NCBI GenBank assembly: GCA_002104935.1
Contig: MCGT01000067.1
Location: forward strand, 1-36,011
Length of the DNA: 36,011 nucleotides
Direction: 5' to 3'
Origin: Hesseltinella vesiculosa
Lineage: Eukaryota; Mucoromycota; Mucoromycetes; Mucorales; Cunninghamellaceae
Part shown: one piece after another, positions 1 through 20,872 of the stretch
Numbering within the stretch: the stretch's first letter is position 1
Layout: the number at the start of each line of letters is the position of its first letter
Translations under genes and position numbers: made by a program
Notes under the pieces: model-generated
Databases searched by the model: none
What the model was told of the DNA's origin: nothing
The model's input: the letters and a program-made list of their open reading frames with translations, nothing else

Positions 1-1615
1 AGAAAAAAAGGTTGGGCGGCGGGCAACCCATCTGGATGACATCTTGAACGTAAGTGCGACAATAAAAAAAAAAAGGTTAGGCGGGCAACTCACCTGGATG
101 ACACCTTGAACGTAAGTGCGACAAGAAAAAAAATAGGACTTGGGCTGGCGGGCAACCCATCTGGATGACAATCTTGAACGTAAGTGCGACAAGAAAAAAA
201 GGTTGGGCGGCGGGCAACTCACCTGGATGACACCTTGAACGTAAGTGCGACAATAAAAAAAAAAGGTTAGGCGGGCAACTCACCTGGATGACACCTTGAA
301 CGTAAGTGCGACAAGAAAAAAAGGTTGGGCGGCGGGCAACCCATCTGGATGACATCTTGAACGTAAGTGCGACAAGAAAAAAAGGCTGGGCGGCGGGCAA
401 CCCATCTGGATGACATCTTGAACGTAAGTGCGACAAGAAAAAAAGGTTGGGCGGCGGGCAACTCACCTGGATGACATCTTGAACGTAAGTGCGACAATAA
501 AAAAAAAAGGTTAGGCGGGCAACACACCTGGATGACACCTTGAACGTAAGTGCGACAATAAAAAAAAAAGGTTAGGCGGGCAACTCACCTGGATGACACC
601 TTGAACGTAAGTGCGACAAGAAAAAAAGGTTGGGCGGCGGGCAACTCACCTGGATGACATCTTGAACGTAAGTGCGACAAGAAAAAAGGCTGGGCGGCGG
701 GCAACCCATCTGGATGACATCTTGAACGTAAGTGCGACAATAAAAAAAAAGGTTAGGCGGGCAACTCACCTGGATGACACCTTGAACGTAAGTGCGACAA
801 TAAAAAAAAAAGGTTAGGCGGGCAACACACCTGGATGACATCTTGAACGTAAGTGCGACAAGAAAAAAAGGTTGGGCGGCGGGCAACCCATCTGGATGAC
901 ATCTTGAACGTAAGTGCGACAAGAAAAAAAGGCTGGGCGGCGGGCAACCCATCTGGATGACATCTTGAACGTAAGTGCGACAATAAAAAAAAAAGGTTAG
1001 GCGGGCAACTCACCTGGATGACATCTTGAACGTAAGTGCGACAAGAAAAAAAGGTTGGGCGGCGGGCAACTCACCTGGATGACACCTTGAACGTAAGTGC
1101 GACAATAAAAAAAAAAGGTTAGGCGGGCAACACACCTGGATGACATCTTGAACGTAAGTGCGACAAGAAAAAAAGGTTGGGCGGCGGGCAACCCATCTGG
1201 ATGACATCTTGAACGTAAGTGCGACAATAAAAAAAAAAGGTTAGGCGGGCAACTCACCTGGATGACACCTTGAACGTAAGTGCGACAAGAAAAAAAGGCT
1301 GGGCGGCGGGCAACCCATCTGGATGACATCTTGAACGTAAGTGCGACAAGAAAAAAAGGTTGGGCGGCGGGCAACTCACCTGGATGACACCTTGAACGTA
1401 AGTGCGACAATAAAAAAAAAAGGTTAGGCGGGCAACTCACCTGGATGACACCTTGAACGTAAGTGCGACAAGAAAAAAAGGTTGGGCGGCGGGCAACCCA
1501 TCTGGATGACATCTTGAACGTAAGTGCGACAAGAAAAAAAGGTTGGGCGGCGAGCAACTCACCTGGATGACACCTTGAACGCAAGTGCGATAATAAAAAA
1601 AAGGTTGGGCCGGCG
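1..1615. repeat. Minisatellite, about 26 copies of a ~60-bp unit
   Basis: The core TTGAACGTAAGTGCGAC recurs about 26 times at 60-68 bp spacing. Units fall into two main types: one with an AAGA-rich run and GGTTGGGCGGCGGGCAAC, the other with a longer A-run and GGTTAGGCGGGCAAC. They also alternate between CATCTGGATGACATC and CACCTGGATGACACC. The last unit (from about 1560) is diverged and stops near 1615. Units are very similar, which points to recent amplification or homogenisation. The array is cut by the left edge, so its true length is unknown. Several frames stay open for 60-195 codons because the unit carries few stops. These are not taken as genes. Confidence 0.95.
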
Positions 1616-4048: not shown

Positions 4049-7000
4049 ATGCTGATGAAAAAGCAGCAAAGCGTACCGGGAGAGATGAGCGATTCAAGAT
4101 CATCAAGTCGCCTATGTCCCTACCGCATACCCTCTCAACGTGCGCAAGGGAACCAATTGCTTGGTGGAAAGAAGACCAAGACACTCACGATCAAGCATGG
4201 ACTGTACCCATTATTGAAATCGCTACGCAAAGCCGAGAAAGAAATTATTATGGATGGCCTTCAAGCAGTTGTTGATTTTAATCGTCGTGTGTTGATTTGC
4301 AGTCACCTTTTTATCCTGGATTACTTCAACTCCCGCCTCACCAATGGCCTGGATATCCCTCTAGTGTTCCTGGACTATCAGTTTGTCAATGGTGTGTTTC
4401 AGCTTGTCATTGGCCGATCTTGGTTGAACGCCTTTCTCATCACTCAAGAAGTCTGTCAGCACATTGAAGAATCATTTCCCGCATATCTGATTCAGCATCC
4501 TAGTATCCACTGCCCACTGGTCCCTTCTACCATGCTTGGGAAACGCCTGCCCTATTGGATTTTCCAAGATTTTAACTTCTACGGCCCCGCACGTATGCCT
4601 CCAGCATGGTGAATCATGTCGTCAAGGTTTACGACCAAGCCTACATCGGCTACTTGCACGCTCGCCTTACTCGTTCCATCCCAGTAAGTAGCTCAAATAA
4701 CCCTCCACCTCTAACAGATCATCTTTTTTTTTTTTTTTCAATAGGAACTTAATCGCTTTCAAGTTGGAGCCCTTGCGGATTTTGTGTTTGACACGTGTGC
4801 ACAAAACCAAGACTTTGAACCAGTTTGGCCGACGATCAATGTTGAAGATTCTATCGACCATACTATGGTGGATGCCAAGGTCGACACTGCTTTGAACGAA
4901 TTGATAGACGAGACTTGGGACAGATGGACACAACTCGCCATTCGTATTGAACAAGAAGGACCCTTGCCACAGCAAGACGCGGGTGAGGACAACCAAGAAG
5001 AGGATGACAACCTCTCGGTCAGCACAGCCACAGCCATGTCCATCGACACTATCTCAAACCTTGGCATCTCGCGCCTTGATGTTGCTACTGGCCCTTATAC
5101 CTTGCCTCCGCTAGCTGATCCATCTCTCTCAACTGACAATGCTATTCGTAGCCAGGCTCCTCCATCTGCGTCTATTACAACGACAACGATCACCCGGTAT
5201 CCGCACCTGTTTATCAAGATTCTATTTGATGTGTTGTGCAGCTTGGAGCGCCTAAATGAAGATCAACACACCGCACCGGCGCCACAAACCTCTGTTCATT
5301 GGAATTGGACACATCACCAGTTCTCTGGAATGCATGACTGGAGTTATCTGAACCATCACCAGCGGTCAAAGCTCGTCCGTGGTATATCCAAATCCATCAA
5401 CAGCAACACTCCAGTGGACATTGAACGACTGCCTCGTGTCTTTTCTCAGCAATCCCGCCAACAAGTGACCACGCTTGTGGCCGAAACGCAACGAGCTCTT
5501 GCTTCTGGCATATTCTGATCTGGAGCATACCTTGTGTCACCAAAAGCGCGTCTTTTCTCGGCCCTCCCCACACCGCTCTCACCCGAGAATTCATTCAAGT
5601 CTCCCACGATTCTCTTGGTGAAATCATGCGCCATTTCGGATTAGAACACTACGTCGTACCTCAAGCGATTCGCCCAGTTGCTGGACAGTGCATGACAATT
5701 TCAAGATCCTGAACTTGAAAAGGATCCATAGTGAGTAAGTGGGAAACAAAGAGATAAAAAAAAGGTGAGAGCATTGCCGGATAAAAGGTATCTCACGTTT
5801 CATTTTCTAGTCGCGGAATCTTCCTCAATCAGCAGTACACTGATGGCTATTCCGTTTGCGTTCCATTCAAAATGATGTCCGGTGCATCGATCGGCCAATC
5901 TCTTCGACTGACCGACATTAGCCCTGTGGCCATGCAGCAAATGGACGTTTGGGGTATAGATCCTGGCGTCACCGACATCTTTGTAGCATCAAACTCCTCC
6001 GATCCCCGCCGCCGTGCTTACCTCTCCCAGCGGACCTTCCAGATGAACCATTGCTAGCCACACCGCCGAACCCAAGGCATCAGATCCGCCGCTTTTCCAG
6101 TGCTGAATATTATGTCAAAGCTGGCTACCGAAAAACCGTCGCAATTATCAAAGCCTGGAAGCAGCAGCACGACATCACTGAAATTGAGTCGTCCTTTGGA
6201 TCGCCAAAAACATCAGTGCGCCAAAACATCACTGCCTACATCACTGAAAAGCTACGCCATTTGGATCGCTTGCTCTTATTTTATGGCCAAGACATTCAGC
6301 AGCTCCGCTTCTTGAACTACAGGGGCGCGCAGCTCGTTAACCACGAACTGGTCGAGATATTTGTCGACGGTGGTCGCAAGTACGGATCCCATGCCTCCAA
6401 CTGTAACAGCCACGACACATACATGAGCCGGCTAAATGAAGATGGCAGTTTTAAGAGTCGTCGGCGTCAGCATGCCCATCCCTCCCCTCCTCAGCCGAGA
6501 TAATGTCAAAACCAACAAAAAAACTGACTTCTTTTTTTTTCAGCGAGACCAGAAATGGAAAGTGGCGTCCCTTGCCTTTCCAACCATCCACCCAGATACC
6601 CCTTCTGTGCATTGGTGATGGAAGATTTGGCAAATGACGAAAAATATACTGCAGTGTTTGCACGCTTTTTTTTGTCTAACGTGTTAAACAAGTTTTCCTT
6701 TTTTGGCGTCCCACCTAACCCTGTTTGGTTTTTTCTTACACTGCTCAGAATATACACATCAAGGCGAAACTGTTGAATGCCAAGGACCATGGCAAGACAA
6801 TGTTTACGGCTATGTACCAAAAGGTCCACTGACGAATATTGATGATGCCTGTCATTGGAAGCCCGGTTCCTTTGCCGTCCAAATACAATAAGAAGATCGC
6901 GTTCATGCAAGACTGGAAAGGCACGATGAATGAGTCACTGACTTCTTTGTCCTCTAAATCATTGGTTGAAGCCATGGCCACTGCATCAACAGAGCAAGCG

Positions 7001-7166
7001 TCCTCCTCCTCTGCTTGTCCTTGCCTACCGACCCATCTTCTTCCTCAGCTCCACCTGACACAAAGATCCTGATTGGTACAATGGTATGATGGAAACCAGG
7101 CCGCTTCAAAAAAACAGCTGCTGGAACTAACTTTTTTTTTTGCGTCAGATGAACTGTAATATTTGT
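4049..7166 (+). pseudogene. Decayed, divergent Fanzor (TnpB-like) nuclease gene
   Basis: Several disconnected frames together resemble a Fanzor RNA-guided nuclease. An N-terminal helical region lies at about 4160-4610, and 4784-5518 continues it after an intron (acceptor near 4744). An exon ends with a strong donor at 5735. The next exon, from 5811, carries a TDG-type strand and RuvC-I WGIDPG (Asp codon 5959-5961). It is followed by a Fanzor-like EYY / helical / FLNYRGAQ stretch at 6100-6400. An exon from 6544 reads into IGDGRFG (6611-6631), the RuvC-II position. CNIC at 7155-7166 may be a zinc-ribbon remnant. Disruptions: a stop at 4610-4612 whose continuation is in another frame, a stop at 5516-5518, a frame change between 5962 and 6090, and a TGA at 6635-6637. 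It is only distantly related to Fz2 and Fz3. The end is uncertain. Confidence 0.6.
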
Positions 7167-7387: not shown

Positions 7388-7734
7388 CTACGGAGTATCT
7401 AGAGAGAAAAAAACCATCGTCATTTCCCACCCACTTCTTAGGGCTGCTTACCACGTAAATAGATCAAGTATGGATCTTCAGGATGCATTGTTAATGCTTT
7501 GATTAAGATTGAATTGGCTGTGGCCAACTTTCCGTCATTTCTTTCAAGTTCGATGGCTAAACACCACAAGCGAGCTTCCATGCTATAGGTTGCAAGGAGT
7601 GGGCGGATGATAAACCTTTGCTGGCTGACAGGTAGGTGGCGCAAGTTGTCGATCAAATCACGCAGGTGCTCGGCACCATTAGATAGCAATGGTAAGCGTG
7701 GTGGGACAGTGGGTTGCATATTAGGGGACGACAT
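7388..7734 (-). CDS. HAT/TPR-like companion ORF of Fz2, divergently transcribed
   Basis: This small ORF starts at 7734 on the minus strand, 158 bp from the ATG of Fz2. Read straight through it gives 98 aa to 7438. A donor GTAAGC at 7451 and acceptor CTAG at 7399 would give a 97-aa version ending at 7388. The C-terminal half fits a HAT/TPR helix pair: MEARLWCLAIELE, NDGKLATAN, SILIKALTMHPEDPYL. That pattern (RLW..A..LE...G...AN.L..KAL...P) resembles HAT repeats of Prp6-type splicing factors. A homologous ORF lies in the same place and orientation upstream of Fz3, which argues that it is a real, co-inherited gene. Function unknown. The Prp6 resemblance is from memory of the family and needs a profile search. 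Confidence 0.6.
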
Positions 7735-7892
7735 TATGTGAAGTGAGAGAAAGAGGATAAAAAAATGCTTGTGCGGAAGTAAAAAAATAGTCGCGTCTTT
7801 TTCTTGGTTTTTTTTTCTTCTTGTTTCTCTTTTACTTTCTTCATTGACGTACTAGCCATCATTCAGCTTTTCTCCTTATCTTTGATCGTATT
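7735..7892. promoter_or_regulatory. Shared intergenic promoter region of companion ORF and Fz2
   Basis: This 158-bp gap separates two divergent start codons. The right half is pyrimidine-rich on the plus strand (T/C tracts, 7797-7845), typical of fungal promoter or 5' UTR sequence next to a start. No clear TATA box. The equivalent gap at the second module (11879-12016) has the same T-rich layout. Confidence 0.45.
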
Positions 7893-10800
7893 ATGGATGT
7901 ACCACGACCACCGCCCATCGGTGCAAACAAACACTTGTTACAGTCATGGTTTTTAGTGCTTATCAACGTCCCAATCCCCACTCTGCAAGCGTTGACGAAC
8001 GATGAAGCACGATTCGCTGAAGATCACCTTTTAACCCCTCAACAAACCATGATATTGCTCACCGCGGTACGTAAGTATCGCCAAGGTAAACTCGCCTCCT
8101 CAAGAGTGGGAGAATATATCTATTCCTCACCTTTTCTTTAAAAAAAAATGGTCAGGGCTACGAGAATGTACCGCATGTGGATCACCTCACCATGCAACTA
8201 GTCGATCACGTCAATGTCCTTTCCATGTGCCCCCAGATCACCGTAAGTGCATCTTCCTTTTGCACTTCTGGTACCCGTGCTGACTTTTCCGTCCTCTCTC
8301 TCTTTCTCTGATAGCAATCTTGGCGACAACCAGCACAGACAGAGAAACCTTGGCGGAGATAAGAAACCTGCAACAACAAGGCGACCTTCAACGCCAAGCT
8401 GCTGCAAGAAACCCACATCCACCTGAATTTTGCAACACTTGTGGCCTTCCAGGACACTCCAGAGCATCCCACCCTGCCTGTCCCATGCGAGCTATGAGCA
8501 AGCTGCAGTACATGTCGAGCCGATTACCTGGAAACGAAGAGTACACCCGCGTTCGCAGTCTTGATAGCATTGTCCGAACACCGTTTCGCCATCACCTCCT
8601 GGCAGCGATCAATGAAAAATCTGCTTACGTGCGCAGAACCATGACGTGACTTCAGCTGTTTTTAGTGGACTACGCCACGAATCATCCTAACCAAGTCCCT
8701 CCGTTCCTCTTCCAACAAAATGGTCTCTATGTGATATCTCAGCTAACAAGAGGTCGCATGAATAAATTCCAAGAAGCCTTGGACGAACGGATGCCAGATA
8801 CCGTCTTGGAACACTGGCAGGCATATGAGCAGTCCTTGCATCAGCTTGCCACGTATGACATGCCCGGCCATACACAAGAATTGACCATAGCCTGCAAGCT
8901 GCAGGCATCTTGCAATCGTAACCACGTGACGGAAAACTTCGAATCTAGAATCAAGCAATATGTGAAGTTTCGATATGCCGTTCATGGCCTGGTACGTAGG
9001 AAAAAAAAAGGCCGAGGTGGTTGGAAGGTTTGGCCAGGGACGATCTTCTAAACTCTACGATTTCATTCCATTTGTAGCTTCCTCCCTCCCGGGTCTTGGC
9101 CGCCATAAAAGATCATGTTTATGAGTGCTTCGCCCTGGAAACACGGATTCAAACTCCCGTCCCCGATACTATCCCCTCCATGTACAGGAACCAAATGGTG
9201 GTTATCTTAAATGAACTCTGGGCAATGAAACCAATTGATCTGCCTACGATTACCCAGGAAACCATTCGAGCCGATCCAGGTCAGCATTTGCCAATCCTTA
9301 TCAGTATCTTACAGGTTTACGATCACCATCGAGCCATCAATAGCAATAACAACAGTACCATTGCAATCCATCATTCACTATTTTGCCGATCCCATCAAGC
9401 AAGCCACGTTTTATAGACATTACGCCCGAGAACATCCAAACATTTGTTGGTGAGCATTCTGAAACAAACAACAGGGCAATGACATCATTACCCCCATTCG
9501 TGCGCAAGCTGCATCAGTATTGGACCATTTTCCAATTTGAAAAACTCGGATACCAAACGTAAGCTTAAAAAAAAAAAAAAAGAGAGAGAGTGCATTCACC
9601 TGCGCTTTTTTTCCTTCTATTTTTAGCTTTGAGGATCTACGAGACGACTGGATCACTGGTAAAATGTTTTCTGGTGTCATGCGTTCTGACGGTGTGCAGC
9701 TACACATCGTTTTCTCAAGATTACATCATGGACCTGATATGCCTGTGGTAGCCACTCCTGACCTTGCCAATGAAGATGTCAATGGTTTCACCCTTTCTGG
9801 CGTCGACCCTGGCCGTCGTGCTGTGGTGACGGTCTCTTACGGAAGAGGCAATGACCCCCACGGCATTCGATCTATGAGCTCGAAAGAGTATCGAACGGCA
9901 AGCCGAGAAATACACGAGCAGCATCACCTTGAACATCGGAAGTCGCTACCACTGCCCCCTGCTCCTGGTCCGCCCCTCCCCTATCACACTATGGCTGAAA
10001 TCGAGACTAATACGCCTATGGCCGCCACTGCTGATCCCCTGACAATCCGCGAATCCATCCATCACAAGCTTCTATGCTCAGAGTCCGCGTTGGCATTCTA
10101 CGACATCTCACATGCCCGTTCCCGCTTTGAGCTTCGAAAAGGCCAGCAGAGGGCCATTGCGATGACGGCTAACTACATCACGACTGGATCCAAAAAATAC
10201 AACCGATCATGCAGAGTGAAGCGGCACACACGACGAAATCGCAAACAAAGGAAGCGCAAGGCACAACGACGGCGCCAAGTTCGACAGTCTCGCCTCAAGG
10301 CCGAATACGATGACATTGTGCAATGTATTGAGCGACTGAGCGCAGCGCGAGACCAGCAGGCATATCACATGGACCAACTCCTTCGCGTGTCATTGGACGA
10401 TCCAATGTCCCTTCAACCTCGGACCCGCTCTGTCACCCAACGCCAAGCATTTGCGGTGTCACTGAATGAAGCTCTGGATATGTTCGTCAGTGGGCATGAC
10501 CATGCAACAACGACGCTGACCACTGAGATTGAAGAGCTCGAGGAACAAAAACAAGCAATCCAACGCCAATACCTGACCTCAAGTGGCCAAAGGTGAACAA
10601 AAAAACAATAGAATGCCTCACAGCAAAAGGCTCACCCTCCCTTTTTTTATCTTCTATTCTTCTAGCCGCGTACGTGCCGTGAAACATCAATTCAGTGGAT
10701 CTTTGGAACCCGCAAACGGCCTGCCATTGATATCCTTTGGTGCAGCGATGGTTGGAAGAGATGGGGTCCATCTGCGTGGCCACACCTGTGGGACGAACAG

Positions 10801-11184
10801 ATCTAGTTCGTCGCCACCTTCTCGAGCGCCAGAAGAGAGCCCTCTGTCTTGTGTCGCACACGGATGAGTTCTGGACATCCCAGGTAACGTGAAAAGAAGA
10901 GAAAGGAAAACTGAGCTTGACCCAATGCCCATGTCTATGTCTAGAACTGTCACCTATGTGGTGAACAACTGTCCCCGTGCGGGGAACCGATGGGCATGTG
11001 TTTTCCTTGAAGCACTGCTCAAACTGCGTGGCCATATGGGATCGCGATGCCTGCGCTGCCTCTAATATGTTCTGGATCCTGGAAGAAACTGTACAGAATG
11101 GTGTACGCCCACTGACTCTCACTCGCCCGCCTGCCGATCGACCTCCACGTCCGACCCTGCCATCTGAGCCTCTGTGGCGTCCAT
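7893..11184 (+). pseudogene. Fz2: Fanzor (TnpB-like RuvC nuclease), multiply disrupted
   Basis: The exon structure matches Fz3 one to one: 7893-8085, 8156-8242, 8315-8991, 9078-9558, 9627-10592, 10666-10883 and 10945-about 11184. It has the same phases except where damaged. The first exons carry two zinc-knuckle-like motifs (CTACGSPHH...CPFH; CNTCGLPGHS...CP). Exon 5 carries RuvC-I SGVDPGRRAVV and an Arg/Lys-rich coiled-coil insert. Exon 6 carries FGAAMVGRDG and HTDEFWTSQ; exon 7 carries CHLC...HCSNC and WDRDACAASN. Lesions relative to Fz3: TGA at 8647-8649 where Fz3 has CGC, a -1 frame change near 9355-9362, an extra G in 10790-10792, and a -1 change near 10975-10990. Each motif is still readable, so decay looks recent or partial. 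A terminal intron donor (GTAAGT at 11185) is conserved in position with Fz3. Confidence 0.8.
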
Positions 11185-11598
11185 GTAAGTCAGTGTTCAT
11201 ATCTTTTTTTTTTTTTTTTTTTTGGCTCAGTCGAATTCACCTCTTTTTTTTTATTTTAGGAATATCCCTTTTTTTATCCTTGTACTGCCGTAAATAGACG
11301 GTTGCACCGTCACCTTTATTTTTCTTTTGACGGTTGCTTGAAGTTTAATGTACAGGTAAGGCGAGAAAAAAAAAGTAGCAGTCGCTGACTTTCTCCTGCT
11401 CTTTGATATCCCCTTGCTCCGTATCTTTATTGGTAAGTTGAATTTCCATTCGCCATCGCATGCTAAACTTACCCTCACATTTCCATGTTTAATACAGTAG
11501 CTAAAACAAATTCGCAAGGCGAAGTCGCAAGCCGTTGCCGCATTTGAGGTATGAAAGAATTCGCTATTGCCGATCTTGTGAAGAAGGGAGCCGCGTTT
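11185..11598. other. 3' flank of Fz2: intron-like signals, hairpin, candidate guide-RNA region
   Basis: No coding frame is supported. The stretch opens with a GTAAGT donor, then T-runs and an acceptor-like TTTTAG at 11259. A perfect 5-bp inverted repeat GACGG/CCGTC (11297-11311) follows, with GACGGTTGC again at about 11329. Two further GTAAG words (11356, 11431) follow, each after a G-ending exon-like piece. A similar order of T-runs, TTGAAGT, GTAAG and a pyrimidine block occurs 3' of Fz3. In Fanzor loci the guide RNA is generally encoded beside the nuclease gene, so this is a candidate, not a demonstrated RNA. Confidence 0.3.
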
Positions 11599-11878
11599 TC
11601 AAATAAAAAAAAAGAGAGTAAGGTTCGCTTGATGGTATATGACTTTCATGAGAAGTGCATTTGCAGCATCGTGCTTCCCTTCTTGAGATTCTAAATGGAT
11701 AGCTTGGACCCACAGGCGAGGTTCCATGGGGTAGTCAGCCAAAAGTTCTCGCAGGATGGCCCGTACCATGGCGTTCGAGGATGCTGTCCAGGCTATCCAA
11801 CATGGTACGCAAATGATCAACAGCATTGGAGTAGCCAGGTATTTCGGGAGGACCGTTGATAGGAGGTGGGGTTGTCAT
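11599..11878 (-). pseudogene. Frameshifted HAT-like companion ORF of Fz3
   Basis: On the minus strand an ATG at 11878 starts a peptide (MTTPPPINGPPEIPGYSNAV, then DHLRTMLDSL) that matches the start of the Fz2 companion (P.....SNGAEHLRDLIDNL). It then hits a stop. The matching C-terminal half (RELLADYPMEPRLWVQAIHLE, GKHDAANALLMK) is in another frame from about 11780 downward. One indel around 11770-11800 explains both halves. A second frame or splice difference near 11630 affects the C-terminus. An intron could in principle bridge the frames, but I see no good donor/acceptor pair. Confidence 0.6.
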
Positions 11879-12016
11879 TGTGCCGTGCTGGATGTGGGTG
11901 AAGAAAAAAAAATGGCAAAAAGCGGCTCATTGTGATTTTTAAACCTCGCACGCGACTTTTTTTTTTTCCTTCTCTTTTTGCTTATTTTTTTTTTCACCTT
12001 CCAACTTCCTTGCTAC
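11879..12016. promoter_or_regulatory. Shared intergenic promoter region of companion relic and Fz3
   Basis: This 138-bp gap separates divergent start codons. An A-run lies at about 11905-11915 and T/C tracts at 11958-12005 precede the Fz3 ATG. Layout and length parallel the gap at 7735-7892, though little primary sequence is obviously shared. Confidence 0.4.
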
Positions 12017-15000
12017 ATGGAGAGAGAACAACCGCAACACCGCCCTTACATAGGCTCAAAGCACCACCTCCAAGCACTGTATATGACCTTGATAAATGTG
12101 CCAGAGCCTGTTTACACCAACCTAACAGGGAACTTTCAAGAGTTCCAAGCCAACAACGGCCTGACACAAGAGCAAGCCATCCTTGTACTCTCATGGGCTG
12201 AAAAACACAGATCAAGTAAGTCATCTGGGATAACACTGCTTCAGTTTTTTTTTTCCTCACCTTTTCATCTTCTTGAAACCCTCTCAAGCTCTTCGATTGT
12301 GTCAAGATTGCGGATCTCCTCATCACCTGACTCGCAGGTCGCGAGATTGTCCATTCCACGACCGTCAGCAAGGACGTAAATTTCTGCCTTCATTTTCATG
12401 TGAAAACCTGCTGACCTCATTTTTTGTCACTTGTCAGCCATCACGGCTACGACAGCTAGGGACCCTGATACCGCGGCTGACATTCGAAGAATGGTGCAGC
12501 AAGGTGCCCAACAATTTCAGGTGGCAGCTGCCAACCCAAACCCGCCTGAAGTTTGTCCTACCTGCCATCTGACTGGACATTCAAGCTCTGCAAATCGTGC
12601 CTGCCCATTTCATCCCACAAGCAGAGCTGAATTTATGAAACGCCACATGCCTGGCCATGAACAATACACACGAATCAAAAGCTTCGAAGCTTTCGTGCGA
12701 AAGCCATTTGTGGACCAGTTACGACAAGCAGTGTCCGTCAAATCTGAATATCTCAAGAATGTCATGACTCGCCTTCAACTGTTCATGTCAGATTATGCCG
12801 CCAACCATGCCTCTGATCTAACCCCCTTCCTGCTCCACCAAAACGGCCTCTACCTGGTCTCCCAGCTCATACGTGGTCGCCGTGATGAATTTGTCACCAA
12901 GTCTGCCCAAGACCCTCGTGTTCCTGCTTCCTTGCTCCGCCATTGGGACAATGATTACCATGTCACCTTGGCCCCCTATGACACCTATGACCAGCCGGGC
13001 CACACTGCGGAATTGACCATGGCATGCAAAGAGCAAGCAACGGCAAACAAAAACCACATCAGCAAGAACTTCGAAGGACGGGTGAAAGCCTTTATCAAAT
13101 TCCGGTTCGCTGTCGATGGCGAGGTAAAGCAGAGGTGAAAAAATAAGCATGGGTTGACTTTTCCGTGCTTGACTCTCTTCCATTTTTTTTTTTTTTTAGT
13201 TGCCTAATAGCAGTGCCATGGGTGCCATCAAAGCCTATGCCTACGACAACTTTGCGCTCCGCCAACCAGATCCATCACAGCCCATTCCCGAAGAAATCCC
13301 TCACCACCATCGACGTCTGATGAATGATGTGATCATTGAGTTGCGAGAGATGAAGCCATCAGAAGAAGACATCACCGCACAGACATTGCATGCCGATCCA
13401 GCGAAATACCTTCCCTTGCTTCGAACTATCCTCGACGTGTATGACTATCATCGATCTCTGCCCGAGACTGACGATGGTCCAGTCACATTGCCATCATTCA
13501 CGCTTCTCCCAATGCCCTCGAACCGCCCACGCTTTATCACCATCACAGCAGAGAACCTACCTTCCCTTGTCAACCGTCCCCACCACCAAATAAGCCGTCA
13601 AACACCCCGTCGCGTCCCACCGTTTATGGAAAAAATGGATCTCTTCTGGGACGTTTTCCGCCTTGACAAATATGGTTATGGAAGGCAAGTTCAGGAGACA
13701 CAGCGACAAAAAAAAAAGGGGGGGCAAGTGGGCTAATTTTATACATGACTTTCTAGTGTGGATGATGTGAACAATGAATGGCATTATGGTCGTATGTTTT
13801 CTGGTGTGTTGCGCACGGACGGTGTCCAAATGCATGTCGTGTTTGCAAGACTGCCAACAGGACCAAAACCACCTCTACTATACGCACAAGACTTTGCCAA
13901 TACGACTTACCCCATGCACCAATATGCGCTGTCGGGCACAGACCCTGGACGTCGAGCGGTCGTCACCACGTCCTTTGGATCTGGATCGGAGCCACACCCC
14001 ATACGTAGAGTGTCTGCCAAGGAATACAAGACGATAACCAAAGAGACCGTACGTCAGAAGCACCTGAATGACAGGAAAAATAATGTGCTCTTACCTCTTC
14101 CTGGCGGCACTATGGCAACGATGGCGACGATTGAATCGGAAACGCCGACGACGACCACATGCGACGTAGTTGAATTTAGGCAAGCCGTCTCGCACAAACT
14201 CCGCCATCTGACGTCGACAATGGCATTTTATGGAAGCCACTCATCGAAAGCCCGATTTGAAGCAAAGAAGGGTCAGCAACGAGGAGCCGCGGCCTGTGTC
14301 AACATCATGTTGACCGGGTCTGCCAAATATTGCAAGGCCAAGCGAATGAAAGCCAAGACGAGGAAAAACCGACGCCGGCGTCGCAAGTTGAGCCAGGAAA
14401 AGCGGGCAATCAAGCAGCAGATTGTTCGTTCTGACTATGTTGCTGTCGATACCCAGATCGCTGATGTCGACAACCAAATCGCTGTCCAAGAAGCCGCCAT
14501 GGATGCCATTGTTTCCGGGATCATGGATCTCGACCTGTCACAAAACCAAGCCATCCAAAGCGCACTGAACACACATGTGACCGCCCACGAGCTCATGGTC
14601 AACACACTGGAACAACATCGACTGCTCCTGAAAAACCAAAAGGAACAACTGCAACAAAAGTTCCTGGAACTGAACCATAGGTAGGAAATGGAATAAAAAA
14701 AAAAGGGAATCTGACTATTCCACCTCTTCTTTTAGCCCAAAAAAGTAAACCTGAAGTCGCCCTTGGAAAAAAAATCGTGCTCACTTTTTTCTTCCCCTCC
14801 TAGTCCTATGAAGAAACGATACCATGGCTCCCGCCCTCAGCAACAAGGCCCATCCTTGGTGGCGTTTGGTGCTGCAATGATTGGTCGCGATGGGGCCAGA
14901 ATCCGAGGGCATGCAGTTGGACGAACGGATGCTGTCCGAAATCACCTACTCGAACGCCAGTCCCGTGCCCTTGCTCTGGTACTGCACACAGACGAATACT

Positions 15001-15346
15001 TGACCAGCCAAGCAAGTGCTTTTTTTTTTAGTCAGAAGACAAGTGACAAATGTACGATTTTTCTTCTTATATCTAGGCTTGCAATGTCTGTGGAGGCCAA
15101 TTGTCACCCGTTGCCAACAACAACAACCAACAAGGCATCTTTGGCCTGAAGCACTGCACTGCCTGCTGCATGTTTTGGGACCGAGATGCCTGTGCAGCCA
15201 ACAACATGTTTTGGGCTGCGCTCTCAACGCTGGAGGTTGGGGCCCGGCCTGCTCCCCTCGCACGACCAGCTCCTGGTGGTCCACATCATCGACGTCCGAC
15301 TCTCCCCCTCATCTCCCTCCCACCGCAAAATTGTAAGGAAATCTGA
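12017..15346 (+). CDS. Fz3: intact Fanzor, eukaryotic TnpB-like RNA-guided nuclease
   Basis: Seven exons (12017-12215, 12289-12375, 12438-13123, 13200-13684, 13757-14680, 14804-15011, 15077-15346) join in phase to about 952 aa. Residues 71-90 and 135-154 are zinc-knuckle-like (CQDC...HH...CPFH; CPTC...H...CPFH). RuvC-I is SGTDPGRRAVV (D548). An Arg/Lys-rich coiled-coil insert with a likely NLS (KTRKNRRRRRKL) follows. The RuvC-II position is uncharged (AFGAAMIGRDG, G816). HTDEYLTSQ (E858) directly precedes a zinc ribbon with C865, C868, C890 and C893, and RuvC-III is WDRDACAANN (D900). This is the Fanzor signature with the relocated glutamate. Members of the family cut DNA using a guide RNA encoded nearby. 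Two introns (13685, 15012) begin with GC. The start was chosen by homology to Fz2. A conserved donor at 15333 suggests the real 3' end may be spliced further on. Confidence 0.85.
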
Positions 15347-15719
15347 TAACTTGATTGTTTTATGTGAACTCATGTTTTTATTTAGAGTTTTTTTTATTTT
15401 TTTTATACTACCAATTAGTCTTGGTTACGGATGACTTTTTTTTTTTTTTCATCTGTTTGAAGTGTGGGCTTTGCCCGATACTGGTAAGAATCGAGAGAGG
15501 GTGAAAAAAAAAAATCTGGCTTGGCACTCACTGTTCGTTTTCGTCGCTCCTGCTCTACCCTCTCTTGATTGGGTAAGTACCAACAAAAAACAGTTCGGAT
15601 TGGTCAACCTTCACCAAGCTCACCCCACCCCTTCCCTTTTTTAACTTTCTTAGGTTTCTGCGCCTTTTTTTTTATTTGCTCTTTTTGCGACATTTCCATT
15701 CCTGCGACATTTTTTTGTA
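15347..15719. other. 3' flank of Fz3 up to the DIRS insertion; candidate guide-RNA region
   Basis: T-rich DNA with exon-like pieces ending in donors: ...CGATACTG|GTAAGA near 15483 and ...TTGATTGG|GTAAGT near 15573. They are followed by an acceptor-like TTTCTTAG at 15653. The order (TTGAAGT, GTAAG, A-run, GCTCCTGCTCT-like block, TTATTG/TTGATTGG, GTAAGT) resembles the 3' flank of Fz2. It may be a spliced 3' UTR, an extra coding exon or the guide RNA. No open frame is convincing. Confidence 0.3.
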
Positions 15720-15736
15720 AATTATACTTCATTGGC

Positions 15737-15833
15737 GACAAGACCTAGATTGTGTTGTACTTTTCTTTATTCAAATTCCGATATATTAAAAAAAAATAAA
15801 TGTCAGAGAGAGTGTCAAAAGTGTAAAGTTATC
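15737..15833 (+). repeat. DIRS left inverted terminal repeat (97 bp)
   Basis: It starts GACAAGACCTAGATTGTG and ends GTGTAAAGTTATC. It is the exact reverse complement of 19733-19829. A further 17 bp of unique left edge (15720-15736) lies outside the repeat. Confidence 0.95.
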
Positions 15834-15878
15834 TTTTTCTTTATCGCCTTTCGGCTCATTTACCATCGATCAAGAGAG

Positions 15879-16688
15879 ATGTCTGATGATCTTATACAAC
15901 AGCTCATTAATCGTATTAACTCCTTGGAGACTCGCCTGTCAACTGGACCATCCGAACACGACTTCACTACCATCCAAGAAGATGAGCATGTCACTGTGGT
16001 TCAACCGGCCACGATTTTACGCCCTTACCCAGCACTACGAGCCGCCCTACCTCAGCTCGAACAGCCTTTCTTCCGTTCCCCACTCCCCGAGTCTGAACGG
16101 AAGCAGATCCTCAGGGGCTGTCCTCAAGTCCTTGACAGGGACTACGCAGCTCCTCCTCTTGGCGATCTGGACCTACCACCAGATGCCTTACGACTGGATA
16201 AACAACTGCGTGAAATACAATACCGCCTCTCTGGTATCACTCGACCATTGGATGTCTTTGCTCATGATGTGGTTCGTGGCGCTCCTGGTAGCACCACCCC
16301 TGACACCATTTTACTTCTGGTCCGCACGGTGGAAGCATTGTTGGCGGACACAGCAACCCTGGTATCTCAATACCGCATTGACAACGCGTGCAGGGCCCAA
16401 AAGCTCAAGCCCATTCAACTGGAATCAACATGGGAAGATGCTGCCCCCCAAGATTCTCAACAAACTCCCCTTCTTCCTGCCAAGAAGTTACTGGAACATG
16501 CTTCACTCCAAAAAGCCATTCGTACCCAGCTGGGACCTAAACCCAGAAAGGGAAAAGCGCGATTTAACTCGCCCCAATCAACGGTCGCACGACCAGAACC
16601 TCAACCTATCCATCCCGACTCAGCCAAGCGGGATTTTCGGCCAACCTTCAGGCACACAAACCCAAAACCGTCGACCCCACGCTCTTAA
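15879..16688 (+). CDS. DIRS gag-like ORF
   Basis: This frame encodes 269 aa from ATG 15879. It begins with a short coiled-coil-like stretch (LIQQLINRINSLETRL), continues as a mainly helical domain, and ends in a basic, proline-rich tail (PKPRKGKARF...). There is no zinc knuckle. The first-ORF position in a DIRS element and the composition suggest a nucleocapsid role; sequence similarity to other gag proteins was not verified. It overlaps the upstream-open part of the RT frame, which lies -1 relative to it. Confidence 0.7.
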   Translation: MSDDLIQQLINRINSLETRLSTGPSEHDFTTIQEDEHVTVVQPATILRPYPALRAALPQLEQPFFRSPLPESERKQILRGCPQVLDRDYAAPPLGDLDLPPDALRLDKQLREIQYRLSGITRPLDVFAHDVVRGAPGSTTPDTILLLVRTVEALLADTATLVSQYRIDNACRAQKLKPIQLESTWEDAAPQDSQQTPLLPAKKLLEHASLQKAIRTQLGPKPRKGKARFNSPQSTVARPEPQPIHPDSAKRDFRPTFRHTNPKPSTPRS

Positions 16689-18706
16689 AGATACCGGTGG
16701 GTGGAAGATTACAACACTTTTCTTCCGCATGGAACGCTCTCACTTCAAACCAGTGGGTGCGCAACGTCGTTACTCAAGGGTACCTCATTCCCTTAATTAC
16801 CTTACCTCCGCTACAGCCAACATCCAAAGTCTCCGTATCCACAAATCCCAAGACGTCCCCGACGACATCGCCAATAACATCTGCCCTCCAGACAGAAATA
16901 AACACACTCCTCACGAAGAGCGCCATTACTACCGCTACTCCGTCCCCGGGATTCGTGTCCTCCCTGTTCGTGATCCCGAAGAAATCAGGCGACCTACGGC
17001 CAGTTATCAACCTACGCAATCTCAACAGCTACGTTCAACCTACTCATTTCCGCATGGAAACGCTCAAGGAGGTATGTCGACTGATTCAACCGGGGGATTA
17101 CATGACCAGCCTCGACCTTCAGGACGCCTTCCTCCACGTCCCCATCCATCCGAACTCGCAGCACCTGCTCCGGTTTGCCTGGAAGGACCAGCAATACCAA
17201 TTTCGCTCCCTGCCTTTCGGCATGTCACTCTCCCCTTTGGTATTCACCAAAATTCTCCGCCCGGTGCTCCAGTGGGCTCGATCCTTGGGGATAAGAATAT
17301 CGGCCTACCTCGACGATCTGATCATCATTGCTCCGACATCACACCTGGCGCACAAACACACCCAAATGGTTCAACACAAGCTACAATCTCTAGGCTTCCT
17401 GATCAACATGAGGAAGTCATGCCTCTCGCCGGCGCAGATAATAGAACACCTGGGTTTCAGGATCAACAGCCAGCAAATGTCCTTGACGATCCCAGGAGCC
17501 AAACTCCGGGACATTCGACGCAAGGCATTGTATCTCTTGCGCAAGCCAGCCACCCTCCGCCTCCTGGCTTCCTTTATTGGTATGGCGCAAGCGGCGTCTC
17601 CTGCGATTCGCCCAGCCCGATTGTATCTGCAACATTTATTCCAACTCCGCACGACATTGTGGGAATCACACCATCATTGGTCTGCACCAATCACATTGTC
17701 CCAACCTGCGAAAGAGGAATTGCGCTGGTGGATCTCTCACCTCTCTTCCTGGAACGGACAATCCTTCATAGCCGAACCACCTACGGTAGAAGCATTCACG
17801 GACGCATCGGATCTAGGTTGGGGGGCTTGGATAGGTACCCACCACTTGTCATACCCCTGGTCGCCTCAGGAAGCACAACTCCATATCAACATGAAGGAGC
17901 TACTCGCCGTGAAGTATTTGATCCAACTACCACAAATCCGTGGCCAAGCGGTACACCTACACTGCGACAATACGACGGCAATTGCCTACATCAACCACTG
18001 GGGCGGGACACACTCAACACAACTACGCGATTTAGCCATCACGATTTGGAAACAGTGTTTGGCGGACAACACGCGTCTTCACCTTACATTCATACCTTCC
18101 GCATTGAACCCAGCCGACAGCCCTTCTCGCCTGGACCTAACGAAGAATTCCGAATGGTCGATCTCTCCGGTGAGCTTTCGCAAACTAGATCACCGATGGG
18201 GCCCCCACGACGTAGACGCCTTTGCTTCCAGCAGGAACCATCACCTACCCCATTACTTGACCTGGCGATACGACCCATCAGCCCAGGGCACAGACGCCAT
18301 GACGATCCCATGGACAGCTTGGCATCGGCCTTATCTGTGTCCCCCATGGAACTTACTTCTTCCAGTCCTCCAACGTCTCCACGACTCTCGCCAACCAGCG
18401 ACCATTGTGGCTCCCCTCTGGACGAGTGCGATTTGGTGGCCCCTCCTTATGAGAATGACGACCCGACGCCGCCCCATCCTTATTCCGTGCCAACATATCG
18501 TCAACGATCCGGTAAGCGACGTCCCTCCCTTGATGCCTTGGAGGATTCTCGCCTTCGACGTAAACGGCAACACCTCGAGGCACAAGGACTGGACAGCGCT
18601 TCTATCGACGTCATCATCAGAGGCGAAAGCACCCAAGGAAAAACTAACTACAAGTACTTCCAAGACGCATTTATCAAGTGGTCCTCAACTGTCAACCCGC
18701 CGGTGA
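16568..18706 (+). CDS. DIRS reverse transcriptase / RNase H polyprotein
   Basis: The frame opens at 16568 and has no ATG before the RT domain, so expression probably depends on frameshifting from gag (-1), a non-AUG start or splicing. RT motifs in order: KKSGDLRPVINLRNLN, SLDLQDAFLHVPI, FRSLPFGMSLSPLVF and the catalytic YLDD (codons 17306-17317). RNase H follows with all four acidic residues: FTDAS, MKELLA, HCDNTTA and NPADSPSR. After it comes a WGPHDVDAFAS ... DAMTIPW ... YLCPPW segment, which matches the position of the Dam-like methyltransferase domain of many DIRS elements, but with no canonical DPPY/NPPY motif. No stop or frameshift is seen within the domains. Confidence 0.88.
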   Translation, partial: LAPINGRTTRTSTYPSRLSQAGFSANLQAHKPKTVDPTLLKIPVGGRLQHFSSAWNALTSNQWVRNVVTQGYLIPLITLPPLQPTSKVSVSTNPKTSPTTSPITSALQTEINTLLTKSAITTATPSPGFVSSLFVIPKKSGDLRPVINLRNLNSYVQPTHFRMETLKEVCRLIQPGDYMTSLDLQDAFLHVPIHPNSQHLLRFAWKDQQYQFRSLPFGMSLSPLVFTKILRPVLQWARSLGIRISAYLDDLIIIAPTSHLAHKHTQMVQHKLQSLGFLINMRKSCLSPAQIIEHLGFRINSQQMSLTIPGAKLRDIRRKALYLLRKPATLRLLASFIGMAQAASPAIRPARLYLQHLFQLRTTLWESHHHWSAPITLSQPAKEELRWWISHLSSWNGQSFIAEPPTVEAFTDASDLGWGAWIGTHHLSYPWSPQEAQLHINMKELLAVKYLIQLPQIRGQAVHLHCDNTTAIAYINHWGGTHSTQLRDLAITIWKQCLADNTRLHLTFIPSALNPADSPSRLDLTKNSEWSISPVSFRKLDHRWGPHDVDAFASSRNHHLPHYLTWRYDPSAQGTDAMTIPWTAWHRPYLCPPWNLLLPVLQRLHDSRQPATIVAPLWTSAIWWPLLMRMTTRRRPILIPCQHIVNDPVSDVPPLMPWRILAFDVNGNTSRHKDWTALLSTSSSEAKAPKEKLTTSTSKTHLSSGPQLSTRR

Positions 18707-19575
18707 ACCCTTACTCCCCTTCCCCTGCGGACATCATGTCCTTTATTTCCCGCCAGCGATCAACACGCCCTTGGCAACCACCGACATGCGCCACCGCAAA
18801 ATTCGCCATCCTAGCACTTATTCCAGACAAAGCCCACCGCCAGAGGATTATGTCCGACGCAACATTCACGGAGTACTTCCTCGCACTGCGAAAAACGCAC
18901 ATTCGGGTTGCACCCTACAGCCGTTTCGATATCACCCCTGTCTTGGACAGCATCCGTACGGATCACGACAACCCCCAGCTCTCGTTACGGGTTCTGACCG
19001 CGAAGGTGTGTTTCTTACTCGGCATCACGGGATTCTTACGAGCCGCCGATATCAACTCCATCGACAGGGATGACTCGTACATCCATGGTGTCACCGGCTA
19101 CCTTCACCTGTCAATCATCAACCCGAAGGAACGCCGTCAGGGTTTCTCGATCACGAAGGAAATTACGATCGCCCCCTTCGCCCAGGACCCTATGCTTTGC
19201 CCGGTGCGTGCTTATAACACCTACTGCGAGCGCACACCAGCTCCATGTCAACAACCTTTCCCGGACTTCGACAACAAACCCAAGCCTTTCTTCACCCCAC
19301 TGATCCGAAACTTGGGCAACCTTGCCTTGACGGTCTCCCCTGACTCCATCCGACGCCACATACGCCACTTCCTTGATTTGATCCCTCGTCCAGCCCACGT
19401 CAAACGCCCAAAGGCACGGGCACTGGGATCCACCCTTGCCGCCATCAGGGGAGTGGCTATTGACGATATCTTGGTTCAAGGGAACTGGACCTCCCGCAAC
19501 GTCTTCCATGACCATTACCGCTTGTCCTCTGCCCACTCCTCCGACATTACCTCGACAGTGCTCCGCCAGGAATAA
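18310..19575 (+). CDS. DIRS tyrosine recombinase (integrase)
   Basis: The recombinase lies in the third frame and overlaps the RT ORF by about 400 bp. I start it at the ATG at 18310, but the frame is open far upstream, so the start is uncertain. An N-terminal SAM-like domain lies at about 18600-18950. Catalytic-domain landmarks: arginine in GITGFLRAADI, second arginine in RPKARALGSTLAA (the usual His of HxxR is Pro here), Trp in VQGNWTS (replacing the GH of phage integrases, as is common in DIRS/Crypton enzymes), and the nucleophile tyrosine in NVFHDHYRL. The enzyme would insert the circular cDNA at a short AAT core. The frame is intact to TAA at 19575. Confidence 0.85.
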   Translation: MDSLASALSVSPMELTSSSPPTSPRLSPTSDHCGSPLDECDLVAPPYENDDPTPPHPYSVPTYRQRSGKRRPSLDALEDSRLRRKRQHLEAQGLDSASIDVIIRGESTQGKTNYKYFQDAFIKWSSTVNPPVNPYSPSPADIMSFISRQRSTRPWQPPTCATAKFAILALIPDKAHRQRIMSDATFTEYFLALRKTHIRVAPYSRFDITPVLDSIRTDHDNPQLSLRVLTAKVCFLLGITGFLRAADINSIDRDDSYIHGVTGYLHLSIINPKERRQGFSITKEITIAPFAQDPMLCPVRAYNTYCERTPAPCQQPFPDFDNKPKPFFTPLIRNLGNLALTVSPDSIRRHIRHFLDLIPRPAHVKRPKARALGSTLAAIRGVAIDDILVQGNWTSRNVFHDHYRLSSAHSSDITSTVLRQE

Positions 19576-19602
19576 CACTTCATCGATGGTATTTCTTGCA
19601 AC

Positions 19603-19701
19603 ACACAATCTAGGTCTTGTCGCCAATGAAGTATAATTCTCTTTTAATCCGAATAAAATGACGGATTCACAGAATTATACGAGTAGACAAGACCTAGATT
19701 G
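19603..19701 (+). repeat. DIRS internal complementary region
   Basis: 19603-19640 is the reverse complement of the left end (15720-15757 region). From 19638 on it is the reverse complement of the right end (19814-19879 region). The two arms meet at one shared AAT (ATT on this strand). This region is thought to template completion of the element's ends during circular cDNA synthesis. Confidence 0.93.
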
Positions 19702-19732
19702 GCCCTCCCCTCCCTTTCCCTTCTTTATATTT

Positions 19733-19829
19733 GATAACTTTACACTTTTGACACTCTCTCTGACATTTATTTTTTTTTAATATATCGGAATTTGAATAAA
19801 GAAAAGTACAACACAATCTAGGTCTTGTC
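19733..19829 (-). repeat. DIRS right inverted terminal repeat (97 bp)
   Basis: Exact reverse complement of 15737-15833. It is followed by 50 bp of unique right edge (19830-19879) that is also represented in the internal complementary region. Confidence 0.95.
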
Positions 19830-20872
19830 TACTCGTATAATTCTGTGAATCCGTCATTTTATTCGGATTAAAAGAGAATAAAGTGTAAGAATGCAAGGTT
19901 TGGTTGGACAATGGGCTTGTGTGACAATGTTAGGAAGAGCCCAATGGCCGCAGATGTTTGTTCCAAATGGGGAAAATCAATGACTTTGCTGATTTGTGGA
20001 TACTGTAGCTTGCCAGCTTACACGTGAAAACCAATCTACGCATGGCCCCCACTTAATCCCGATGATAATCTTTTTTTTTTTTGGTTGCTGTGCATCACCG
20101 ACTATAATTCAAAAAGGTGGCGTTCTTCTCTTATCCAGACCATGACTTTCACCAACCCTCGTGCTATGTTGCTTTTCTTTTTTTTTTTTTGGAGATATTC
20201 AGCCATGGCCATGGTTGAGATGAAGGACACAACGACGCTACCTCTTCTTTTCGGTTTTTGGTTTTGGGTTTCAAGCGAACGCATGATTTTGTTTCTTCAA
20301 ACATTTGAAAATTGGCATGTCATTTCCCGTAGATATCCGAGAGGAGGGGCAGGGAAAGACGCTCACGTTTAAAGTTTAAAAAAAAATGGGAAACTTTCAC
20401 GCTGATAACGAAAACCTTGGATTGACATCGGAAGCCAGGAGAATATGCTGATTGGTGGATTAAATCTTTCTTCGCTTGATTTTGGTAATTTCCAACAGGC
20501 TCCCTGCAGTGAAATTGTTGCATAAGCAGAAAAGCATTCGGTGGGTATATTCCATCCGCCTATTTTTCGCATGGTTGCCATGGCAGCCTCGATGCAGTTC
20601 AATAGAGAATCGCTGTCTTTTTTTTTTTTAACATGGTCCATCCATGGTGCATGTAAATTGGGAGGCTATTAGACGTGATGAGGGAAAGTAAGGCTTGTGG
20701 GACAATCAAAACGTCATTGATCTCTCCACGATTTATATTTTTGGTGGAATTTAAGACCTGCATTTTACCTTTTATGATTTGTCCATGTCACTTTCATGGG
20801 TCGGAAGTTGGTTGGGTTCATTCACCAATTCTTTCAGAAAATGCTGGCATCGAAATAGTTCCTTTGCAGTGT

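Follow-up and report, generated by a model that had tools for sequence, protein, structure and literature searches.

A short HAT-like gene paired head-to-head with one group of Fanzor1-type genes in mobile elements of Hesseltinella vesiculosa

In Hesseltinella vesiculosa (Mucorales), one group of Fanzor1-type nuclease genes is accompanied by a short divergent gene, here called the companion, whose product resembles HAT-repeat RNA-processing factors. We analysed a window of 36,011 nucleotides (contig MCGT01000067.1 of assembly GCA_002104935.1, positions 1 to 36,011 of the forward strand), which carries two companion–Fanzor pairs, and searched the genome of 27.05 Mb in 85 contigs, in which the window is contig C64. 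The companions are homologous, in most copies keep a head-to-head layout with the nuclease gene, are restricted in this genome to one Fanzor group, are under selection as proteins between lineages and lie within mobile elements. We rate companion and Fanzor together as a two-gene Fanzor1-type element. Our tentative reading, to which we give a probability of roughly 0.4, is that the companion is an accessory in the RNA step of that element.

Companion–Fanzor pairs in the window and the genome

The two pairs in the window comprise the following features. Here pS and pN are the proportions of differing synonymous and nonsynonymous sites, respectively.

7438–7734, minus strand: companion 1 (B family), an intact, HAT-repeat-like open reading frame of 98 residues with a HAT match and pN below pS
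7735–7892, no strand: gap between companion 1 and Fanzor copy 1, 158 bp from start codon to start codon; presumed common promoter region of the two genes
7893–11190 (end approximate), plus strand: Fanzor copy 1 (B family), several exons
about 11629–11878, minus strand: companion 2 (A family), a homologue of companion 1, frame-disrupted here
12017–15343 (end approximate), plus strand: Fanzor copy 2 (A family), several exons, with TDPGRR and TSQACNVC...CTAC...DRD

An earlier, sequence-only reading had described, 138–158 bp upstream of each Fanzor copy and on the opposite strand, a short open reading frame, and had matched the two translations to each other. The order, orientation and spacing were borne out, with companion 2 lying head-to-head with Fanzor copy 2 across a gap of 138–139 bp. 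Companion 2, by contrast, proved not to be one open reading frame: its N-terminal part (MTTPPP...) and C-terminal part (...RELLADYPMEPRLW...) are in different frames. In two sister copies of the A family (L018 and L019), the frame is open across this break point, and similarity to other companions is lost after about residue 80. The match between the two translations exceeds chance, with 22 of 42 residues identical (BLASTP of the single pair, E = 5e-13); this value and the genome-wide family rule out a fortuitous likeness. A copy 100% identical to companion 1 was found at C33:106171. Fanzor copy 1 is damaged: near 8646 its reading frame is interrupted by a TGA, and the last exons contain frame breaks. 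In Fanzor copy 2, both exons used in our searches are open.

Judging from its sequence, we treated Fanzor copy 2 as a diverged Fanzor1-type protein. The TSQACNVC...CTAC...DRD stretch in its spliced C-terminal part fits the zinc-finger/RuvC motif of Fanzor1. According to the portions of Bao and Jurka (2013, PMC3627910) available to us, the Fanzor1 signature is [TS][TS]xxC..C ... C..C ... RD, preceded by a D 125–275 residues earlier. The TDPGRR of copy 2 lies 312 residues before the TS, outside this range, and the regular-expression match for the signature used another D. On copy 2, Pfam PF07282 (Cas12f1-like TNB) scored 25.1 bits (E = 1.9e-5), the cut-off being 26.3, and the middle exons alone had no Pfam match. 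The best PDB match, the TnpB-like protein L79, was weak (E = 1.1) and covered the same motif-bearing stretch.

The companion search of the genome yielded 33 matches at E ≤ 1 in 31 places. We examined 28 of these (30 matches with loci, minus two duplicates) and left out the three weakest. Fanzor exon 1 lies head-to-head on the opposite strand at 26 of the 28 places, the exceptions being L008 and L021. Extrapolation to the start codons puts the gap at 83–158 bp for 22 places and at 448–466 bp for four; in most copies about 110–160 bp separate the two start codons. Nine companion places have no Fanzor N-exon match nearby; four of them (L020, L023, L025 and L029) keep exon 1, which suggests Fanzor genes that have lost their interior.

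The Fanzor N-exon search gave 95 matches at E ≤ 0.001, corresponding to 85 loci, and a companion was sought within 2 kb upstream of each. It is present at 22 of the 85 loci. A companion accompanies 21 of the 24 loci whose best identity is 46% or more, as against one of the 61 below 46% (C45:951657). The three exceptions in the former set are C32:343, which lies at a contig start and lacks upstream sequence, and C2:663208 and C37:218338, both of them partial matches. These frequencies indicate that the companion is the mark of one Fanzor group, which we delimited by identity rather than by a tree. Together with the layout at 26 of 28 places and with pN below pS, they uphold the earlier suggestion of joint inheritance of companion and nuclease in lineages that have diverged. 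No companion relative was found in IMG/VR or in the prokaryote genomes searched.

Several further observations concern the distribution of these genes. Fanzor-like loci are very many for 27 Mb, as one exon query found 85 and a query from another subfamily found further ones. Besides the two Fanzor copies, the window has a smaller fragment resembling Fanzor at 4049–5518 (plus strand), which belongs to another subfamily. Its second part has about a dozen genome copies of 95–96% identity, and among these a companion match within 5 kb occurs only at the window and its C33 duplicate, where the B element is ~2 kb away. Several companion–Fanzor copies are close to contig ends (in the first 5 kb of C12, C26, C51, C7, C68 and C62, and in the last 2.1 kb of C51), which may reflect either a subtelomeric position or assembly breaks.

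Likeness and constraint of the companion protein

A profile built from four companions was searched against the PDB with a cut-off of E ≤ 10. It returned 13 matches, four of them at E < 1e-3, and 11 of the 13 are named RNA-processing factors: three Prp6 entries, a Suf-domain protein, Cwf4, Utp6, CstF-77, CstF subunit 3, Crooked neck, Crooked neck-like and Rrp5. We take the matched factors (Prp6, CstF-77, Utp6, Crooked neck and so on) to be HAT-repeat proteins. Of the remaining two matches, one is labelled only TPR_REGION and the other is an unrelated G1-ATPase subunit. Prp6 and the Suf-domain protein matched at E < 1e-6. The best value, 2.9e-22 for Prp6, is a sum over many repeats, the top single repeat scoring 16.5 bits. 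Utp6 (E = 0.009) and CstF-77 (E = 0.03) matched weakly, and the match to Crooked neck was likewise weaker than those to Prp6 and the Suf-domain protein. Overall, these data support the HAT-like character that had been proposed for the companion.

Pfam Suf (PF05843) scored 14.0–16.7 bits in four companion sequences; because this is below the gathering score of 24.7, we do not call the companion a Suf member. Five helices were predicted in the companion with low confidence (mean predicted local distance difference test scores of 63.9 and 57.8), and Foldseek found no match at E ≤ 0.001 with these low-confidence models. Suf- and Prp6-type genes are present in the host genome. A candidate host Prp6 gene, recovered in part only, scored 38.8 bits in total against the companion profile, with 20.1 bits for its best repeat. 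No host HAT gene was recognised among the genome matches of the companion at E ≤ 1, which speaks against a close host parent.

We then compared the companions of the three families. The values of pS and pN were 0.69 and 0.38 (A–B), 0.80 and 0.42 (A–C), and 0.72 and 0.32 (B–C), giving pN/pS ratios of 0.54, 0.52 and 0.45, respectively. Fisher p values were 5e-5, 2e-6 and 1e-8 in the same order and are indicative only, as sites were treated as independent. Silent sites are thus near saturation between lineages and amino-acid sites are not, which indicates that the companion is a protein-coding gene under constraint. Mismatches at codon positions 1, 2 and 3 numbered 36, 24 and 60 of 97 each for B–C, and 40, 23 and 41 of 77 each for A–B. 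The minimum at position 2 rules out an antisense or promoter artefact.

The host-type HAT sequence also fits a passenger, a captured host exon which hitchhikes and plays no part for Fanzor. Any effect would then be on the host, where the passenger might imitate part of the HAT array of Prp6 or CstF-77 as a decoy. In favour of a passenger, truncated and broken companion copies are common, and the left arm of the element carries another decayed piece of a repeated gene (see below). Nevertheless, its constant position beside Fanzor is unlike decaying baggage, and so is purifying selection between lineages whose silent sites are nearly saturated. We consider the passenger explanation quite improbable.

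The mobile elements

The window contains the following parts of the elements that carry the pairs.

6755–7067, plus strand: left-arm block of the B element, 77–81% identical to C-family elements
11422–11494, plus strand: right-end block of the B element, 89–99% identical to C-family elements
11493–15702, no strand: A-family mobile element, its right limit set by the match to L048 and its left end reading TA/CAGTAGCTAAAACAAATTCGC
19880–19887, no strand: AAAGTGTA, taken from comparison with L031 to be the terminal bases of the B right end

Comparison of copies revealed sharp element ends, TA/CA... on the left and ...AGTG/TA on the right. Wherever the two ends of a copy were both read, in L041, L047 and L048, TA is found at either side, two bases alone being weak evidence. 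These copies are 4485 (L041), 4183 (L047) and 4231 (L048) bases long. Their terminal repeats are short and imperfect: when the 36-base ends were compared with 1000 shuffles, the score was reached by 0 shuffles for L047, 26 for L041 and 242 for L048. Terminal inverted repeats are clear in one of the three. The right-end pattern, with up to three mismatches, occurs at three places in the genome and is too specific for counting elements.

In the window, the A element is inserted at a TA (11493–11494) within the right end of the B element, as judged against L047, L048 and L031. A DIRS-like element with a reverse transcriptase and inverted repeats follows at about 15720–19879; from the sequence comparison, its insertion is taken to have cut AAAGTGTA off from the rest of the B right end. 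For the B element, copy comparison revealed no left end. Window copy 1 and L031 have 7.6 kb in common at 97% identity, and because this likeness extends to the left of the pair, the two loci seem to stem from a segmental duplication and not from separate insertions. C-family elements with similar end blocks have Fanzor DNA only ~63% identical to that of B, and the 77–99% identity of the B and C end blocks may reflect function or an exchange of ends.

The left-arm block of the B element is a degenerate remnant of another repeated gene. This decayed piece is present in the left arms of B and C elements (window 6817–7057; L035:2613–2924) and had no Pfam match. Eight relatives elsewhere are 71–72% identical to it and lie within open frames of 282–474 residues. 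At 11422–11520 and 15560–15702 of the window, visual inspection showed signals resembling GT...AG introns in the right-end region, which is untranslated, of elements from the B, C and A families. At the left of the window (77–1512) is a short repeated sequence whose open reading frames contain repeated RSRCHP... units.

This setting raises the question of whether the companion serves the movement of the element instead of Fanzor. It might aid or restrain a Tc1/mariner-type transposase acting in trans, or dampen host silencing. The companion does lie inside TA-flanked elements, the genome as a whole contains 165 DDE_3 matches, and the largest copy group, of nine, is without the C-terminal half of the companion, as would be expected of a restraint. 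However, the PDB relatives of the companion are RNA-processing factors and not DNA-transposition factors. A role in movement is accordingly an unlikely reading, if one to be taken seriously.

Possible role of the companion and comparison with known systems

In the explanation we favour, a group of TA-inserting Fanzor1-type elements would have captured a short piece of a HAT-repeat protein related to Prp6 and CstF-77/Rna14 and kept it as a second gene divergent to Fanzor, with which it may share a promoter. The HAT protein would then act on the RNA step of the element by binding the Fanzor–RNA complex. Alternatively, it could engage the splicing/3'-end machinery of the host and thereby allow the right-end transcript that bears the guide to be produced or stabilised. 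The companion can probably be supplied in trans, which would account for the spread of copies in which it is truncated, and the element is probably moved in trans by one of the Tc1/mariner-type transposases of the genome. It is a more doubtful proposition that this Fanzor group evolved a dedicated cofactor, a transposon-borne HAT-repeat protein that stems from the splicing/3'-end machinery and now handles the guide RNA or the complex of that RNA with Fanzor.

Several results weigh against an accessory role in the RNA step. First, a profile search of the upstream regions of 12 loci from other Fanzor subfamilies found no companion (0 of 12; best E = 0.65). The positive controls, six degenerate companions, were recovered at 4.1e-12 or better. 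Fanzor as such therefore needs no companion, and a general partnership in this genome is ruled out. Second, the Fanzor N exon beside the companion has pN/pS ratios of 0.28–0.40 in six pairs, and constraint is thus weaker on the companion than on Fanzor. Third, RNA folding at the right end was unremarkable (z from +0.95 to −2.34 in six sequences), providing no support for a guide-RNA structure there. Fourth, a full-length, intact companion was found at six of the 28 examined places (L001, L002 and L004–L007); L001 and the window copy are not independent, as both belong to one segmental duplication. Finally, an internal deletion cuts the companion after residue 62 in nine copies (L009–L017).

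In most of the stretches that align, eight of these nine copies share 93–99% identity with one another; for the ninth (L012, in L041) the figure is 88–94%. Left ends were read for seven, and because their flanks differ, the seven are separate insertions. With at least seven truncated copies inserted separately, the full companion is needless in cis for insertion, a further point against our explanation. A companion acting in trans would explain the truncated and broken copies, as would a dispensable passenger. A different link to the nuclease is that the companion is a brake encoded by the element, limiting the cuts that Fanzor makes in the host genome. Such a brake is conceivable given the many Fanzor-like loci; since a companion is detectable at one of 61 Fanzor loci below 46% identity, it is not generally needed. 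We consider it very improbable.

If the companion acts in the RNA step, guide RNAs of transposons would be connected through it with splicing/3'-end factors of the host. Were it a dedicated cofactor, a eukaryotic RNA-guided nuclease would have drawn a protein partner from the RNA processing of its host. The genome offers natural comparisons among Fanzor genes with a full, a truncated or no companion.

The companion shares profile likeness with the HAT factors Prp6, CstF-77/Rna14, Utp6 and Crooked neck, and its predicted helices come in the same order. HAT-repeat RNA-processing factors carry many repeats. Their matched chains span 530–941 residues, whereas the companion has about five predicted helices in 98 residues and is borne on a transposon. 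TPR-CHAT is a helical-repeat protein encoded beside the type III-E CRISPR effector. The companion likewise stands beside an RNA-guided nuclease but is far smaller and has no protease domain according to Pfam, and we claim no relationship.

In line with the earlier reading, no Fanzor partner of this kind is mentioned in the passages available to us of PMC3627910, PMC10711439 and PMC10432273. A word search of the accessible text of PMC11423790 (supplements not covered) found no helper-protein wording, and no paper with both 'Fanzor' and 'HAT repeat' was among the matches listed; 'Fanzor' and 'tetratricopeptide' occur together in PMC10744593 and PMC11127173. With protein helpers of Fanzor unmentioned in these passages, a partner inherited with one Fanzor group and under selection would be a testable case for the use of protein helpers by some eukaryotic RNA-guided nucleases. 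In the passages of Bao and Jurka (2013, PMC3627910), Fanzor1 genes sit in Tc1/mariner-type elements with TA target sites, some with a Mariner transposase and others with Fanzor1 only, and extra genes are known, PGv-1 combining a transposase, a GIY-YIG nuclease and Fanzor1. The elements described here likewise have Fanzor1 and TA target sites. They differ in their HAT partner, which those passages do not mention and which is kept head-to-head throughout a group, and in their short, imperfect terminal repeats. According to the consulted parts of Saito et al. (2023, PMC10432273), the Spu-1 elements of SpuFz1 are fungal and multi-copy, have inverted repeats and encode the guide RNA in a right end that is conserved, and the SpuFz1 locus has a single open reading frame. 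The same parts report 11 loci with further genes, including Gypsy/Ty3, where insertion into Fz is read as past Ty3 transposition. The H. vesiculosa elements are also multi-copy Fanzor elements; a right-end guide RNA is putative in them, and they differ from Spu-1 in having two genes.

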